This document shows, one piece after another, positions 3,115-12,940 of a stretch of DNA of 19,194 nucleotides; the first letter of the stretch is position 1, and each line of letters starts with the position of its first letter. The position numbers and the translations under genes were made by a program. The notes under the pieces were generated by a model. The model was not told the origin of the DNA. It searched no databases and saw only the letters and a program-made list of their open reading frames with translations. This DNA comes from Candidatus Aerophobota bacterium (GTDB taxonomy: Bacteria > Aerophobota > Aerophobia > Aerophobales > B3-G15). The stretch lies in contig JACUUP010000016.1 in NCBI GenBank assembly GCA_014859225.1, positions 1 through 19,194 of the forward strand. The letters run 5' to 3'.

Positions 3115-3143
3115 ATTGTAAAATATTTAAGCGCTGGTGTCAA
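3115..3143 (-). promoter_or_regulatory. Sigma70-like promoter of the flippase gene
   Basis: Read on the minus strand, TTGACA (3143-3138) and TACAAT (3120-3115) are separated by 17 bases. This is a near-consensus promoter, and transcription would begin about position 3108, some 40 bases before the preferred GTG start of the flippase. Confidence 0.7.
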
Positions 3144-3184
3144 AACAAATGGAAAACCCTCTGATAAATGTAGCTGCATTGACA

Positions 3185-3204
3185 CTTAATAGAACTTTAT
3201 TAAG
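3185..3204. repeat. AT-rich inverted repeat in the divergent control region
   Basis: CTTAATA (3185-3191) is repeated in inverse orientation as TATTAAG (3198-3204) with six bases between. It starts just after a TTGACA (3179-3184) on the plus strand and upstream of the phosphatase gene. It could be an operator or a weak hairpin. No clear -10 box stands at the right distance from the TTGACA: the best match, TATACA at 3206, is 21 bases away. Confidence 0.35.
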
Positions 3205-3238
3205 CTATACAGAAAACAATAGCTACTGGACTAATTCT

Positions 3239-4159
3239 ATGAATATTGAGCACGTTAAAAATCAAACGAAAATAGTAAGCTCTCATCAGATGAGAAGTCT
3301 TCTTGAAGGGGCGATTAAAATACTTGAAAAAGAAAGAATAGAAGGAAAAATGGGCTCACAAAAAGTTGTGGGAGGCCTGATTGATATCCTTCCCGAGGGA
3401 AAAGCTGTTGTGGTAGGAGATGTTCACGGTGATTTTGATAGCTTGACCTACATCTTGAGGGAGAGCGAGTTTTTAAAAAGAGTAGAGCAGAAAAAAGTGT
3501 ATCTTATTTTCCTGGGTGATTATGGAGATAGAGGCGAGGAAACGATTGAGGTCTATTTTGCTCTTTTAAGGTTGAAGATAAGCTTTCCGGAGAATGTGGT
3601 TTTACTCAGGGGCAACCATGAGCCTGCGCCCGGTCTTGGCGTTTATCCCTTTGACCTACCATATTTTTTAAGGGCAAAATACCCGGACGAGGAAAAAGAC
3701 TTTGTCTCAATTTTCTCCGACCTTTTCAATCTTTTACCCCATACCGCAAAGGTAAGAGAAAAATATCTCATGCTTCACGCTGGCCTGCCAGAGAATATAA
3801 AATCTATTGATGATATAGCCTTCGCTCACAAGACTCATCCCGACACCTCTTATTTTGAAGAGATTCTCTGGAGTGACCCGAAAAATATAAAGGGAACTTA
3901 TCCGTCCCCCCGGGGAGCGGGAAAAATATTTGGGGAAGATATCTCTAAAAAAGTGCTGCATCTTTTGGGAATAAAAACCCTTATTCGCAGCCACGAGCCC
4001 TGTGAGGGAGTTGCACCTATCCATGGAGGAAAAATCCTGACTCTTTTTTCCCGAAAAGGTTCTCCCTACTACAACAATAAAGCTGCTTATCTTGATATAG
4101 ACCTTTCAGCGCCGGCAAAAGATGCCTGCGAGCTTGCCCGGGAAGCACACTTATTTTAA
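3239..4159 (+). CDS. PPP-family serine/threonine protein phosphatase (calcineurin-like)
   Basis: All signature blocks of PPP-type metallophosphoesterases are present in order: GDVHGD (residues 60-65), GDYGDRG (93-99), GNHE (125-128), HAG (180-182), WSDP (211-214) and RSHEP (250-254). Expected metal ligands are D61, H63, D94, N126, H180 and H252, so the enzyme should be active. It would remove phosphate from Ser/Thr of proteins in the cytoplasm, or from a related phosphomonoester; the substrate is not shown. The frame is open back to a GTG at 3137, but that codon overlaps the -35 box of the divergent flippase promoter, and the extra residues are Asn/Thr-rich and unlike the family. I therefore chose ATG 3239. 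No start here has a convincing ribosome site except ATG 3350 (AAGGA just upstream), so the start is uncertain. The aldo/keto reductase follows after 20 bases. Confidence 0.85.
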   Translation: MNIEHVKNQTKIVSSHQMRSLLEGAIKILEKERIEGKMGSQKVVGGLIDILPEGKAVVVGDVHGDFDSLTYILRESEFLKRVEQKKVYLIFLGDYGDRGEETIEVYFALLRLKISFPENVVLLRGNHEPAPGLGVYPFDLPYFLRAKYPDEEKDFVSIFSDLFNLLPHTAKVREKYLMLHAGLPENIKSIDDIAFAHKTHPDTSYFEEILWSDPKNIKGTYPSPRGAGKIFGEDISKKVLHLLGIKTLIRSHEPCEGVAPIHGGKILTLFSRKGSPYYNNKAAYLDIDLSAPAKDACELAREAHLF

Positions 4160-5154: not shown

Positions 5155-5300
5155 CGGTAACCTTCAGGGTGCGATGTTTTAGTGCATCAGTGTAGCCGCA
5201 CTTTTAAAGGTGCGGCTACATTTTGTCAGGATGTATGCTTAAATTAGGACAGGCGGGACGCCTGTCACCAAAGAAGATCATTGTTCCTCGCAATGACAGC
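5155..5300. repeat. Cluster of palindromic, repeat-like intergenic sequence
   Basis: Three palindromic blocks follow one another. GATG-TTTTAGTG-CATC is at 5173-5188. The 11-bp stem of the terminator is at 5191-5220. A perfect 8-bp stem with a three-base loop, GACAGGCG/CGCCTGTC, is at 5248-5266. Next comes ATTGTTCCTCGCAATGAC (about 5280-5297), which matches the reverse of the GTCATTGCGAGGAAC-type repeat seen between genes in many bacterial genomes. This recognition is from memory. No second copy of any block was found in this window. Confidence 0.45.
5191..5230 (+). terminator. Hairpin terminator after the aldo/keto reductase
   Basis: An 11-bp perfect stem (TGTAGCCGCAC at 5191-5201 paired with GTGCGGCTACA at 5210-5220) with an 8-base loop is followed by TTTTG. 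It lies 36 bases after the aldo/keto reductase stop. The T-run is short, so termination may be incomplete. The sequence also looks like part of a dispersed palindromic repeat. Confidence 0.65.
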
Positions 5301-5342
5301 AGTATACGGGCTTTAGTGAATATTTACGCTTAATGCCCAACC

Positions 5343-5370
5343 TTGCTTTACCTTCCTTTTTTGCTAAAAT
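5343..5370 (+). promoter_or_regulatory. Extended -10 promoter of the MoxR-VWA pair
   Basis: TTGCTT (5343-5348) and TAAAAT (5365-5370) are 16 bases apart, with TGC directly before the -10 box (an extended -10). Transcription would start about 5377, giving a short leader to the ATPase start at 5401. Confidence 0.55.
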
Positions 5371-5400
5371 GTAAAGGATTAAGTTATAACGAGGATAAGG

Positions 5401-7212
5401 ATGAACTACTTAGAACTTATAGATAACATAAGAAAGCTTCCCCAGCCAAAAATTTACAAAAACTCAACAGAGGTTTGCAGAATAAAAGCAACTCCTCTAA
5501 ATATGTGGGATGTGGTAACTGCGGCACTTATCGCAAGACTTAATATTCTTCTTGTAGGTGAAAGAGGTGAGGGAAAAACTCAACTGGCAACCGAGATAAA
5601 CGATACTTACTTCGGGGGAAAGGGAACACTAATCAGAGCGCATCCTGACCTGAAGATAAAGGACATTTACACTGCGCTTAACCTGGAAAAACTTGCATCA
5701 GCAAAGGGAGATACGCATCAGGCTCTTGAGATAGTTGCTTCAACAAAAAACCCCTTAACCATCCTGGATGAGATAAATAGAGTCCCCCAGATAACACAAA
5801 ATCAAACCCTTTCCATTCTTGATGGATACATAAACCTGCCTGAGAGAAACGAACAGGTTTTCTTTGGAGTGGATGGTTTCCATGTAAGCATCGCTACGGC
5901 CAATGTTGGAAAAAGCTACTCTGGAACTTTCCCCTTTGACCCGGCATATCTTGACCGTTCTCATCTTATCATAAACATAGATAATTTCCCTCCTACCACC
6001 ACTGACCTTATTAAAATTCAGCAACAGGATATAAACCCTGGTTTAAAAAGAGTGGAGGGGGAAGATTGCACCAATCTTATAATCCAGATATGGAAACACA
6101 TAAGTAACATAAACTTATCCCTTGATGGCTTAATTTTTGACCTTTATTTGAAAAAAAGCTTAGATTTTTGTGCCAAATCACCCACTAAAAGAAAAAACAC
6201 GGTCAGAGATGATATTCCCAACATGTGCCAGGGATGTATGTCAGGAGAAGAAAAAACTGGACTTTCTGAGGTTTGTGGCTATGTTATCCCGACCAGCACC
6301 CGAAGTTTTAAAGCATACAAAACCTTAGCCATCGCTCTTTACATTGTTGCTGATGCAAAATCCGATACTCCCTCCCCTGCCCTGCCCGGCTACCAGGAAA
6401 CTCTTCAGGCTTTCCGGGTAACTGCTCCTTACTCAGGAATGCTTGATGCTGCCTGGGTAAAAAGAGAATACCACGGCAATCCTTATTTAGCCATTGATTT
6501 TGTCTGCCGCAAGATAAAATCAAACCTGGAGGAAAAGGCAGATTACATTAAAAAAGCCTTTTATGATGCTCTCCGGGGCAGGCTAGCCCGGGATACCATT
6601 GAGACCCTGGGTGAGGAATGGCTCTGGATAGAAGAGATATTAAATGAGATGAACTTAATAGCGCGAAACTCCTCACCCGACCTTATTGAGGAGATAAAAG
6701 AAGGCAGAACCGTTTATACCCAGGATTTCTGGATGGGGGGGATTCTCCACCCTGACCAGACTCTCTTTGGTGAGAGAATCACCCACCTTACCTGGCAGGA
6801 GGATGTGGGAAGGAGAATAAGAGAAACCCTGGACAGTATGTATGGAATTGCCTTTGCCAGTGAAGATGGTATTTACGTATGGTATGAAGGAATGACAAGA
6901 CCAAAGCAAATATTTAAACTCTCTCCAGAAAAATTCAAAAAGAAAAAGATTAAGGGACTTGCCTTTGTCAGAGGAAAACTCCTTTTTGCCGCAGGAAACG
7001 AAATCTACGATGTGGATAATCCTGAGGTTCCTGTTCTTACCACCTCCAGTCCTATTGAGGTTTTAACCCAGAGTGGAGAATCTCTCCTTGGAACAGAAGC
7101 AGAGAAAATATGGATATCAAGAGAAGGCAAAGGCAAAGAGGTTATGATTCCCTGGGAAAACAAAATAAGCTGTGTAGTCTCAGCTCCCGTATATAAGTTA
7201 AAAAAATTTTAA
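5401..7212 (+). CDS. MoxR-type AAA+ ATPase with cysteine insert and C-terminal propeller-like repeats
   Basis: A 603-residue cytoplasmic AAA+ ATPase. Walker A is GERGEGKT (residues 53-60) and Walker B is ILDEIN (121-126). Sensor 1 is ATAN (165-168), an arginine-finger-like LDR is at 184-186, and the sensor 2 region is STRSFKAYK (299-307). These place it in the MoxR branch, whose members remodel proteins together with a VWA partner; such a partner is encoded one base downstream. Two features are unusual. Four cysteines (C257, C276, C279, C292) sit just before sensor 2 and could bind zinc or an iron-sulfur cluster. After a middle region (about 330-480) the last 125 residues carry three to four repeats resembling beta-propeller blades (near 481-500, 519-540, 551-574 and 588-601). 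The start has GAGGA (5391-5395) five bases upstream. Magnesium or cobalt chelatase subunits are related but have different partners. The client is unknown. Confidence 0.85.
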   Translation: MNYLELIDNIRKLPQPKIYKNSTEVCRIKATPLNMWDVVTAALIARLNILLVGERGEGKTQLATEINDTYFGGKGTLIRAHPDLKIKDIYTALNLEKLASAKGDTHQALEIVASTKNPLTILDEINRVPQITQNQTLSILDGYINLPERNEQVFFGVDGFHVSIATANVGKSYSGTFPFDPAYLDRSHLIINIDNFPPTTTDLIKIQQQDINPGLKRVEGEDCTNLIIQIWKHISNINLSLDGLIFDLYLKKSLDFCAKSPTKRKNTVRDDIPNMCQGCMSGEEKTGLSEVCGYVIPTSTRSFKAYKTLAIALYIVADAKSDTPSPALPGYQETLQAFRVTAPYSGMLDAAWVKREYHGNPYLAIDFVCRKIKSNLEEKADYIKKAFYDALRGRLARDTIETLGEEWLWIEEILNEMNLIARNSSPDLIEEIKEGRTVYTQDFWMGGILHPDQTLFGERITHLTWQEDVGRRIRETLDSMYGIAFASEDGIYVWYEGMTRPKQIFKLSPEKFKKKKIKGLAFVRGKLLFAAGNEIYDVDNPEVPVLTTSSPIEVLTQSGESLLGTEAEKIWISREGKGKEVMIPWENKISCVVSAPVYKLKKF

Positions 7213-7213
7213 A

Positions 7214-9115
7214 ATGGACTATAAAACTCTTCAATACGAGCTTACCGGTTTAAATACTTTATTAAATCTCACTGAAGCTTCAATTGAGGTTTTTCCCGTA
7301 AAACCTTCGCCTGGACATATTCAATTTCAACTTTCCTCCACACCACATAAGATAAAAATTAACATTCATGAGGACTGGAATATAAGCGAGGACCACCTGC
7401 TAACCTCCTATCTGAACAAAACCTATCATGAGCATCCCATTTTTGAGATGAGCCAGGACCTTTTGTTCAACAACGCAGCTCACAGCCAGGTTTGCCCGGC
7501 TTCACTTGAGATTCACCACAGACTTTTAAACATTGTAGCTGAAGAATTGAAGAAAAAAAATAAAGAAATGCAGGCAGATTATGTCTGTCATGCGCTGGAG
7601 GATATAATCTGCAACTGTTGGTGCAAACTGAACTTTGGACATTTTAAGGGAATGGTGATTTTTTACTACGACCAGTTAAACCACCTCTCCCCGGGTAATA
7701 GCAATAAAAGGCACTTTTCTAAAAGAAGTTTTTTAAGAAAGTTTTTATCCCCCTTAATTTTAAAGCTAAGATTCGGCATTTTTTATGAGTTCTTTGTCAG
7801 GACAAATCTTTATCTCTGGGGTGAGGAGGATGATTTTTCTTTCCTGCAAAGGTTTTTCAGCGGCAAAAGAGAGATAGAAGATGCAACAGGCAAAATGCTG
7901 GATATACTCCAGCTTAAAGATAGTGCCAGCCTGGAGGAGACAGTGGAAGTTTTGTGTGACAGAGCAAGATGGGAAAAATTTACCCGGGAGTTTTCCCTGT
8001 TAACAGCAGAGCTTATAGAAAATGTCAAAGAAGAAAACGAAAAAGTAAGCTGTGAGATGTGGTTTGAAAAAGAGATTATGGATGAGGATGTAAGAAAAAA
8101 ATTCATAAAAAGAATGTATTATGAAACAAAAGAAAAACCAGATTATATAGAAAATATTGAAGTGACAAAAGTTCTTTACGAGATACTTGCTCCGGAGATT
8201 CCTATCCAGGTTGATATGGAAAAAAGGGGAAGGGCTATGCCTGTTGTGCCCTTCAACTATGAGCCCTTTCATCCCCAGTTTCACTCCACAGAAGACATAG
8301 ACTTAGGGGGAGTGGTAGTGGATGCGGAAAGTCCTTTTTTTAATATGGTAAATTTTCGCGTCCCCAAATACCACTACGATATTTTCATTCCTTACCGCTC
8401 CCAGAGGGAAAGAGCCTTTCCCGATATATGCTTCCTTCTTGACACATCAGCATCTATGGCTGATGATGTGGAAAGTAAAATAAATATACAAAGCATTGGC
8501 ATGGTAAAACAAATTATGAACTCAAGATTTTATTTTGGAGAGGGAAAAACTTCCTGGAGTGAGAAAAGTAAATATCACCACGTGCTTCTTGGATTTAATG
8601 GTGCTATAAAATGGCTTCAGTCCAAAGGTATAGCTCCTTACATTCGCTATAATGTGATAACTTTTTCCCATGATACGCTAACGAGTGGCTGGCGGGAATA
8701 CTCCCAGCTTGATGAGTGTAAAAAAATAGCTTACCTACCACAGTTTGATACCACCTTAATTGATAACAAAGTGATAGAAAATGAGCTTTTGGCAAGAGAG
8801 CCCTTTGTCCTTATTATACTTTCTGATGGGGAGATATTTAACTGGAATGAGTCAACTAAAGCTTATTCACCCAACCGTCTTAGAGACTTCATACGAGGGG
8901 TAAAACCAGTCAAGTATCTTTTTAAGCAAATAGTGGAAAACAATATGGTCTCTCATATTCAGATAAGCGAAGGAGATTTTAAACCAAGGATATCTATTCT
9001 TACCTGTCGGGATTTAGCTGAATGGGGAGCTGAAATTCACAGGATAAATGATGTAAACAGCCTCCAGTCCCTTATGGTAAGAATAACCAGAAGGGCTATG
9101 AGTAGCTACCTTTAG
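7214..9115 (+). CDS. VWA-domain protein, partner of the MoxR ATPase
   Basis: This 633-residue protein has a von Willebrand A domain in its C-terminal third. The MIDAS metal site is visible: D410-T-S-A-S414 (LLDTSASM), a threonine in FDTTL (T513/T514) and D538 in LSDGE. The first 400 residues are not clearly recognisable. Residues about 86-137 resemble the helices of a zinc metalloprotease-like domain seen in some VWA partners of MoxR ATPases, but the expected HExxH reads NNAAH and only the second histidine (H90) remains; LEDIICN follows at 128-134. By analogy with RavA-ViaA and CobS-CobT pairs, the VWA protein would bind the ATPase ring and direct it to a client. It has no signal peptide or membrane helix, so it is cytoplasmic. 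The ATG comes one base after the ATPase stop with no ribosome site, so translation is probably coupled. The gene ends 18 bases from the convergent atpE-type gene. Confidence 0.82.
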   Translation: MDYKTLQYELTGLNTLLNLTEASIEVFPVKPSPGHIQFQLSSTPHKIKINIHEDWNISEDHLLTSYLNKTYHEHPIFEMSQDLLFNNAAHSQVCPASLEIHHRLLNIVAEELKKKNKEMQADYVCHALEDIICNCWCKLNFGHFKGMVIFYYDQLNHLSPGNSNKRHFSKRSFLRKFLSPLILKLRFGIFYEFFVRTNLYLWGEEDDFSFLQRFFSGKREIEDATGKMLDILQLKDSASLEETVEVLCDRARWEKFTREFSLLTAELIENVKEENEKVSCEMWFEKEIMDEDVRKKFIKRMYYETKEKPDYIENIEVTKVLYEILAPEIPIQVDMEKRGRAMPVVPFNYEPFHPQFHSTEDIDLGGVVVDAESPFFNMVNFRVPKYHYDIFIPYRSQRERAFPDICFLLDTSASMADDVESKINIQSIGMVKQIMNSRFYFGEGKTSWSEKSKYHHVLLGFNGAIKWLQSKGIAPYIRYNVITFSHDTLTSGWREYSQLDECKKIAYLPQFDTTLIDNKVIENELLAREPFVLIILSDGEIFNWNESTKAYSPNRLRDFIRGVKPVKYLFKQIVENNMVSHIQISEGDFKPRISILTCRDLAEWGAEIHRINDVNSLQSLMVRITRRAMSSYL

Positions 9116-9133: not shown

Positions 9134-9730
9134 TTAGCCAAAAAGGCGACGGGCAACCTCAATCTCCTCCCTGTCATTAACCATTAAAAATAAGGTAGAG
9201 ATAGTAGCGTTTATCTGAACATCTTCGCTCTTAACGATAAATCCTCTATCTTCCTCATCCAATTCAAAAGAGAATTTAAGAGCAGGCTTTATTCCTTTTT
9301 CGCTAATAGCTTTTTCTATTTCTTTAATAAAATCTTTATTAACAAGGTCTTTATCGCCGGGAGAAATTAAAATTTCCTCATCTCCCCGTCTAATGCTTGC
9401 AACAAGGACATCTCTCATTAAAGAAAGATATTCTTTCTCATCAATTTGCAAAAACTTCTTTTTTGCCTGGGCAAAAACTTGCCTCATCATCTCGGCTTTA
9501 AAGGTGAGAATATTTTTTCTCTCCTCTCTGCGCACCTCAACTAATTTTCTTCTCATTTCCTCATCAACTTGCCTCTTACCCTCTTCTATTATTTGTTTTT
9601 TCCGCTCCTGCGCCTGCTTATTGGCTCTTTCAATAATTTTCCTTTTCTCCTCCTCAGCCTCTTTCCTGATTTTATTAACTTCCTCGTTTACCTTTTCATC
9701 AATACCTTTAAGTATCTCTTCTAATCCCAT
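9134..9730 (-). CDS. atpE: V/A-type ATPase subunit E (peripheral stalk)
   Basis: The 198-residue length and layout fit subunit E of V/A-type ATPases. A long charged coiled coil fills residues about 10-90, rich in Lys-Glu-Arg (for example RKEAEEEKRKIIERA). A globular C-terminal domain follows, containing the conserved stretch FIVKSEDVQINATIS. Subunit E is part of the stator that holds the catalytic A3B3 head against the membrane rotor. AAGGG lies upstream of ATG 9730 and the gene starts 35 bases after the stop of subunit K. In most V/A-ATPase clusters E is followed by C, F, A, B and D; here the gene ends the strand and meets the VWA gene head-on. The symbol follows common usage for V-type subunit E (ntpE is equivalent) and does not mean the F-type c subunit. 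Confidence 0.88.
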   Translation of the reverse strand: MGLEEILKGIDEKVNEEVNKIRKEAEEEKRKIIERANKQAQERKKQIIEEGKRQVDEEMRRKLVEVRREERKNILTFKAEMMRQVFAQAKKKFLQIDEKEYLSLMRDVLVASIRRGDEEILISPGDKDLVNKDFIKEIEKAISEKGIKPALKFSFELDEEDRGFIVKSEDVQINATISTLFLMVNDREEIEVARRLFG

Positions 9731-9765
9731 TTTATCCCTTTCTTAATAAACTAAAGCTGCGCATC

Positions 9766-10239
9766 TTATAGTTCCATCCCCATTACCATAAAAATAGTTA
9801 TGAGAAGACCCAGAACAGCGTAAAACTCAACAAAAACGGCTAAAACCATGGCCTTCATTGAATCAGCTGGCCTCTTAACGGTTAACCCCACACCCGATGC
9901 ACATACCTTACCCTGATGGATAGCCGAGATGAAACCCAGGATAGCAATGGGCAGGGCAGCAAAAAATAAACTCAGCCCCTGAGCAAAACTTAAAGGGAGT
10001 GGGGCTCCGGCTAAAAGATTCACCTTCATTATCAAAAGAAATGCCGCGATAAACCCGTAAATTCCCTGAGTTCCGGGTAGTGCGGTGAGAATGAGGTATC
10101 TTCCAAAATTTTCCGGATCCTCAGCCATAGCTCCAGTGGATGCCTGTCCAGCATAACCGATACCTATACTGGAACCTGTACCCGCTAATCCTACCGCTAA
10201 TGCAGCCCCAAGCAAAGCTAAGGCAAGACCAAGTGTCAT
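9766..10239 (-). CDS. ntpK: V/A-type ATPase subunit K (membrane rotor proteolipid), sodium-type site
   Basis: A 157-residue proteolipid with four membrane helices in two related hairpins, as in V-type c subunits (16 kDa, duplicated). Only the second hairpin carries the ion-binding carboxylate, E138 (VFVEFYAVLG). The residues that coordinate sodium in Enterococcus hirae NtpK have counterparts here: L54, T57 and Q58 in ALPGTQG, Q109 in AIHQGK, and E138. This predicts sodium coupling by established structure-function knowledge, though actual specificity was not tested. AAGGAGG stands just before the ATG, directly after the uvrB stop 12 bases away, so translation is likely linked to uvrB. In the usual gene order subunit I precedes K; here uvrB does. 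Confidence 0.9.
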   Translation of the reverse strand: MTLGLALALLGAALAVGLAGTGSSIGIGYAGQASTGAMAEDPENFGRYLILTALPGTQGIYGFIAAFLLIMKVNLLAGAPLPLSFAQGLSLFFAALPIAILGFISAIHQGKVCASGVGLTVKRPADSMKAMVLAVFVEFYAVLGLLITIFMVMGMEL

Positions 10240-12382: not shown

Positions 12383-12940
12383 TTATAATCTTCTTCCCTG
12401 GTTTTTTAATTCACCAATTTGCTTTTGATAAATACTCCTTATAAAGTTAAGTATTTGAAGATACTCTGCGCTCCTGTAATCAGAATATGTCCATTCCTGG
12501 CTCTGAAAACCCTTATCCTTAGAATATCTTAAAGTAACCTCACCGTATATTCCTTCACCAAGATATATGCGGTGAGAAAAATCCTTGGTTGTGGCTAAAA
12601 CCAACCTGGCTAAAGTCAGATATCCAGGGTCTATGTTCACTTTTCTTTTTGAAGTTCCGGGAAAGACAAATTTCTCCTCAAGTTTGTTAGTAAAAAGCTT
12701 TATCCCGACAATTTTTTCCGGAGCAATAAGAGATTTAAAGCTTAAGAATTTCCTCCACAGAACTTCCCCCATCTCCTCCTGATAATAGTCGGTATAGGTA
12801 AAGGGAATTTTATGGCTCTCAAAATCAACTTCTCCATATTCATTTGTTAGTTTATCCTTTGTTTTAACAAAAAATTTATCCTCACTAAAGATAATACCTG
12901 TTATTAGTTTAGCTGGCAGGGGAAATCTTATCTTACCCAT
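12383..12940 (-). CDS. DUF4416 family protein
   Basis: This 185-residue soluble protein matches my memory of the DUF4416 family along its whole length. It has an N-terminal P(A/V)KLITGIIFSE strand, then YGEVDFES, then FTYTDYYQEEMG. Next come KLFTNKLEEKF, the very conserved VNIDPGYLTLARLVLATTKD, and SHRIYLGEGIYGEVTLRY. The C-terminal EWTYSDYRSAEYLQ is also typical. Its function is not known. The conserved Asp-Tyr-Tyr, Asp-Pro-Gly-Tyr and His-Arg residues could form an active or ligand site, but that is inference. The family is found mostly in diderm bacteria and is not tied to one pathway. The gene is transcribed divergently from the yidD operon, and a promoter-like sequence at 13011-13039 serves it. 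No clear ribosome site precedes ATG 12940. Confidence 0.85.
   Translation of the reverse strand: MGKIRFPLPAKLITGIIFSEDKFFVKTKDKLTNEYGEVDFESHKIPFTYTDYYQEEMGEVLWRKFLSFKSLIAPEKIVGIKLFTNKLEEKFVFPGTSKRKVNIDPGYLTLARLVLATTKDFSHRIYLGEGIYGEVTLRYSKDKGFQSQEWTYSDYRSAEYLQILNFIRSIYQKQIGELKNQGRRL

Follow-up and report, generated by a model that had tools for sequence, protein, structure and literature searches.

A divergent, lineage-restricted MoxR AAA+/VWA gene pair with extra domains in the candidate phylum Aerophobota

The MoxR AAA+ ATPases usually act together with a VWA-domain cofactor in the maturation of specific complexes, and are regarded as client-specific chaperones (PMC3893208). NorQD inserts a finger, formed by the VWA domain, into the pore of its AAA+ protein, and as ATP is hydrolysed the VWA and N-terminal parts of the cofactor are twisted against each other (PMC13036017). 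NorQ-NorD and CbbQ-CbbO, of the CGN subfamily, are each encoded by adjacent genes, one for a MoxR ATPase and one for a protein with a long N-terminal region before its C-terminal VWA domain; RavA-ViaA and YehL-YehP of E. coli likewise combine, in one operon, a MoxR ATPase and a protein with a C-terminal VWA domain. MoxR, vWA and propeller parts come together in the MoxR-vWA-beta-propeller (bpMoxR) ternary systems of Kaur et al. (2020), in which the propeller is carried by the vWA protein, a third component is present, and the P-loop frequently reads GxxxTAKS (PMC7159879). Pairs of the MoxR/VWA kind mature specific enzymes and complexes, and the client is known for few of them. In this paper, we have analysed a stretch of 19,194 nucleotides (the window), which is one contig (JACUUP010000016.1; G000:C39 in our numbering) of a 1.8-Mb metagenome-assembled genome from the candidate phylum Aerophobota, and in particular two of its genes, in which a sequence-only reading had recognized a MoxR/VWA module of unusual domain make-up. 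Those relatives of the genome that bear a name are metagenome-assembled genomes of Candidatus Aerophobetes. The pair is a lineage-restricted, divergent MoxR/VWA variant with extra domains, outside the named families, and it probably works as a remodelling machine. The two genes are conserved as a unit, the VWA half of which escapes current profile libraries, and the presence of two paralogous pairs in one candidate phylum offers a comparison that can reveal how machines of this kind acquire new targets.

Both open reading frames (ORFs) lie on the + strand exactly where they had been placed, with the stop of the ATPase gene and the start of the VWA gene one base apart. We call them the long pair, as distinct from a shorter paralogous pair in related genomes, and their features are listed below.

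5401..7212, + strand: gene of a MoxR-class AAA+ ATPase, 603 amino acids (aa) (ORF, Pfam match, alignments)
5506..6000, + strand: AAA+ core, residues about 36-200 (Pfam AAA_5, invariant motifs, alignment to generic MoxR proteins)
5557-5583, + strand: Walker A within the core, GERGEGKT; the core also holds Walker B, sensor 1 and the arginine finger
6169..6276, + strand: four-cysteine insert in the lid, just before sensor 2 (conserved in long and short paralogues)
6826..7209, + strand: C-terminal propeller-like segment, residues 476-603, about three blades (model and structure comparison)
7214..9115, + strand: gene of the VWA protein, 633 aa (ORF, alignments)
7214..8173, + strand: N-terminal region, residues 1-320, with no recognized domain (mostly absent from the short paralogue)
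8174..8413, + strand: pre-VWA segment, residues about 321-400 (common to the short paralogue)
8417..9112, + strand: VWA domain, residues 402-633 (invariant residues, profile match of the MIDAS segment)
8441-8455, + strand: DxSxS of the metal ion-dependent adhesion site (MIDAS), within the VWA domain, which also holds SDGE

The long pair was found in 6 of the 17 Aerophobota genomes, with both genes in the same genomes and adjacent in all six at a distance of 1-31 bp (in one of them a contig break cuts through the ATPase gene); what the survey returned was thus linkage throughout, and not the scattered, unlinked homologues that would have spoken against a module. Four of these six genomes also encode the shorter paralogous pair (435 + ~370 aa), which is without the propeller and without most of the N-terminal half of the VWA protein, and whose genes overlap by 4 bp. 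Outside Aerophobota, a single relative of the VWA protein was found among 386 genomes (E=1e-56), in the genome G197 of a two-genome phylum. Its gene (L047:3-1469) is cut at the 5' end by the contig start, and no ATPase relative was found in G197, where the sequence upstream of the VWA gene is missing. The one scan over a larger genome collection was run with a single sequence and detects close relatives only, so the distribution may be wider. No close match to known pairs was found among PDB sequences, none to the VWA protein among phages and plasmids, none to the ATPase among plasmids, and none among viral contigs. Identity between the window and a sister genus amounts to 77% for the ATPase and 69% for the VWA protein, against 81% for UvrB, 63% for a calcineurin-like phosphatase and 54% for subunit E of the vacuolar-type ATPase (V-ATPase) in the same comparison; judged by these identities, the pair is conserved like ordinary cellular genes.

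The product of 5401-7212 is a MoxR-class AAA+ ATPase. Its motif set is complete, comprising Walker A (GERGEGKT, residues 53-60), Walker B (DE, 123-124), Asn168 as sensor 1, Arg186 as arginine finger and Arg301 as sensor 2, and all of these residues are invariant in the alignment of orthologues and paralogues. Generic AAA models were its sole library matches (Pfam AAA_5, E=1.9e-8). In 366 genomes, a profile of the family gave scores >200 bits in Aerophobota only, the remaining matches being generic MoxR proteins, mostly of 330-350 aa, which scored <=42 bits over the core alone; none of the downstream neighbours of these generic genes, many of them DUF58-like by eye, matched the profile of the VWA protein. 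Alignment with the generic proteins showed that the MoxR core is common to both and that a family-specific lid begins after about residue 200. The region of the MoxR-clade helix-2 insert aligns as well, and the model of the ATPase is too weak to display the insert.

Two additions distinguish this ATPase, both of which the sequence-only reading had pointed out. The first is the four-cysteine insert, which is missing from the generic MoxR proteins. C257, C276, C279 and C292 recur in each of the five full-length long orthologues in the alignment, and the short paralogues have four cysteines too, the third being shifted in position; they probably form a structural metal site beside sensor 2. The second is the C-terminus, by which the long ATPase runs ~160 residues past the end of the short paralogue (near long residue 445), so that the propeller-like segment is not present in the latter. 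The AlphaFold2 model of the ATPase is weak (mean predicted local distance difference test score, pLDDT, of 42), and its best-predicted part is residues 481-560, which form strands with pLDDT mostly of 72-85 (blocks of 60-85). When residues 476-599 were compared by VIA-align, the rows listed were propellers, the best with Z 8.3 and a root-mean-square deviation of 2.8 over 101 aligned residues, a moderate score for a short segment of about three blades. Foldseek alone gave no significant match, though propellers top its list, and in sequence the blades mostly resemble one another no more than expected by chance. The model and the structure comparison agree with the earlier description, and make it likely, though not proven, that the C-terminus is a partial beta-propeller.

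The VWA protein had zero matches in Pfam, NCBIfam, PHROGs and PADLOC, which, with the generic AAA matches of the ATPase, bears out the view that the pair lies outside named families. We assign its C-terminal domain as a VWA domain because the MIDAS residues are invariant, strands and helices alternate in the model, and the MIDAS segment matches DUF2201 proteins in profile comparison. The motif is intact, with DTSAS (410-414) and SDGE (537-540), and D410, S412, S414 and D538 do not vary among the long orthologues and the short paralogues, nor in the distant homologue from G197. As to the six-stranded Rossmann-like fold of such domains, the view comes from a low-confidence model only (mean pLDDT 38), too weak to be used in searching for similar folds. 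The domain carries two insertions that set it apart from the short paralogue. The long region before it had been called unrecognizable and proved so in the profile libraries; when this N-terminal piece and the C-terminal piece of the ATPase were searched separately against Pfam, nothing rose above the cut-off.

With NorQ-NorD and CbbQ-CbbO, the pair shares the adjacency of the genes and a VWA protein whose long N-terminal region precedes the VWA domain at its C-terminus, and a similar ring-and-VWA mechanism is expected; it differs in that only here does the ATPase have a four-cysteine insert and a propeller-like C-terminus, no named-family profile matches, and no respiratory or Rubisco client adjoins the genes. 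The operon layout of RavA-ViaA and YehL-YehP recurs here too, but the similarity is at superfamily level only: in a direct comparison with the E. coli ATPases, YehL was the better at 7.5 bits and RavA was not listed, and full-length similarity to RavA/ViaA was not found, there being no named NCBIfam match and a score of about zero for ViaA. As for CobS-CobT, the VWA protein did not match the CobT family profile, nor any other in Pfam or NCBIfam.

We consider it fairly probable that the two genes encode a MoxR AAA+/VWA machine for protein remodelling, which acts on some client. This reading is favoured because the AAA+ and MIDAS motifs are complete and invariant, the core aligns with that of generic MoxR proteins, and the two genes keep together in every long-pair genome, as do the overlapping genes of the short paralogues; because the known MoxR/VWA pairs are client-specific chaperones, with the finger-in-pore mechanism of NorQD as the model; and because the insertions in the VWA domain could serve as the finger and the pair is conserved like a cellular gene. 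The order of parts in the VWA protein, with a long N-terminal region first and the insertion-bearing VWA domain last, fits the NorQD scheme. The ATPase would form a hexameric ring, on which the VWA protein would dock via its VWA domain, and the client would be held by the MIDAS site, by the 400-residue N-terminal region, or by both. Hydrolysis of ATP by the ring would then move the VWA and N-terminal parts against each other and thereby open, mature or release the client, while the propeller-like segments might surround the ring and add binding surface, and the insertions could act as a NorQD-like finger. As the long pair is paralogous to a simpler pair in the same genomes, the regions added to it have probably directed it to a different client. 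Several points weigh on the other side: the VWA domain lies beneath the level of profile detection, the models of the single proteins are weak overall (mean pLDDT 38 for the VWA protein, 42 for the ATPase), neither a client nor a universal third gene was found among the neighbours, and no protein of this family is known to us to have been studied experimentally.

The DUF2201 metallopeptidase/VWA-like proteins, which are encoded beside MoxR genes, likewise have an N-terminal domain followed by a C-terminal VWA-like domain, and it is with theirs that the MIDAS segment aligns. The VWA protein might accordingly be metallopeptidase-derived, with an N-terminal peptidase domain that decayed in Aerophobota and now binds the client, an origin which we hold to be unlikely. 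The G197 homologue carries YHEGFHW and NVFEDLVVN, recalling the HExxH...NxAxDxxIN of DUF2201_N proteins, and the protein of the window retains HALEDIICN at the second motif place. However, HExxH is missing from the latter and occurs in G197 only, where the alignment is ambiguous, and profile-profile comparison of the N-terminal region with DUF2201_N gave a probability of 0.5%, which is no support for a common N-terminal domain. PF13203 had no match in any of the 17 Aerophobota genomes. Homology of this region to DUF2201_N was rejected for want of profile support. A bolder combination, in which the ATPase carries open segments of about three propeller blades that pair into closed propellers around the ring, and the N-terminal half of its partner is an ex-metallopeptidase with its active site lost, appears quite unlikely to us; if it were true, the client would be gripped both by the propellers of the ring and by the partner.

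The pair had also been put forward as a candidate conflict system; as such, it could be a defence module akin to the ternary systems described by Kaur et al. MoxR-vWA-propeller combinations are indeed known among conflict systems (PMC7159879), the pair is patchily present (6 of 17 genomes), and the ATPase of the short paralogue reached a sub-threshold 15.3 bits (cut-off 27) against bpMoxR. Against this, the P-loop reads GERGEGKT and not GxxxTAKS, the propeller sits on the ATPase and not on the vWA protein, and the loci have neither the third component nor a variable effector gene, so that the pair lacks the distinguishing features of the bpMoxR systems. PADLOC gave no significant match, the conservation resembles that of UvrB, and the surroundings of the pair are shared chromosomal synteny. 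We consequently find the conflict reading improbable.

The remaining proposals concern the neighbouring genes, for which two further features are relevant.

3137..4159, + strand: gene of a calcineurin-like (PPP-type) phosphatase, a possible accessory gene (linked to the pair in the family of the window only)
5191..5220, no strand: palindrome resembling a terminator, which separates the pair from the aldo/keto reductase gene

That the pair remodels the neighbouring V-ATPase, or partners the upstream phosphatase, is very unlikely: both the window and L036 have V-ATPase K and E genes convergent to the pair, and the phosphatase gene is upstream in 3/3 genomes of the window's family, but V-ATPase subunit I occurs in 15/17 and the phosphatase in 12/17 genomes against 6/17 for the pair, and the linkage is lost in other families. 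V-ATPase, which does not track the pair, is thus unsupported as a client, and the phosphatase as a universal partner.

The flanking genes had been described as unrelated, and no universal third gene was found among them, but the phosphatase gene recurs within the family of the window. In two sister genera (L036, L037) it lies directly upstream of the pair, 78-84 bp away, and in the other families this upstream position is taken by a helix-turn-helix regulator (L038) or by a divergent gene (L039, L041). In the window, the aldo/keto reductase gene and the palindrome 5191-5220 sit between phosphatase and pair, the palindrome separating the pair from its upstream gene; the reductase gene is missing from the corresponding position in L036 and L037, pointing to an insertion here. 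A second palindrome (5248-5266) also precedes the ATPase gene within 5155-5400, and since no sigma-70-type promoter site was reported in this interval, the promoter formerly ascribed to the pair is not established.

For the short pair, a gene with a Mut7-C RNase domain lies upstream in three loci (L031:6677-9568, L032:6294-9211, L035:4834-6893), where it overlaps the pair, lies 6 bp from it or is separated from it by one gene, and is a candidate partner of that pair. In the window, the V-ATPase K and E genes (9134-10239) lie behind uvrB and subunit I is on another contig (G000:C126), so the V-ATPase operon appears to be split. Rfam and tRNA scans of the window gave no match. The product of the gene at 633-1508 has 291 aa and, by eye, combines a minimal nucleotidyltransferase (GSxAKG...DSDLD) with an HEPN-like C-terminal half; minimal nucleotidyltransferase and HEPN are usually encoded separately, as the two members of a pair of toxin-antitoxin type. 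A DUF4416 protein is encoded at 12383-12940 (Pfam E=5.8e-59).
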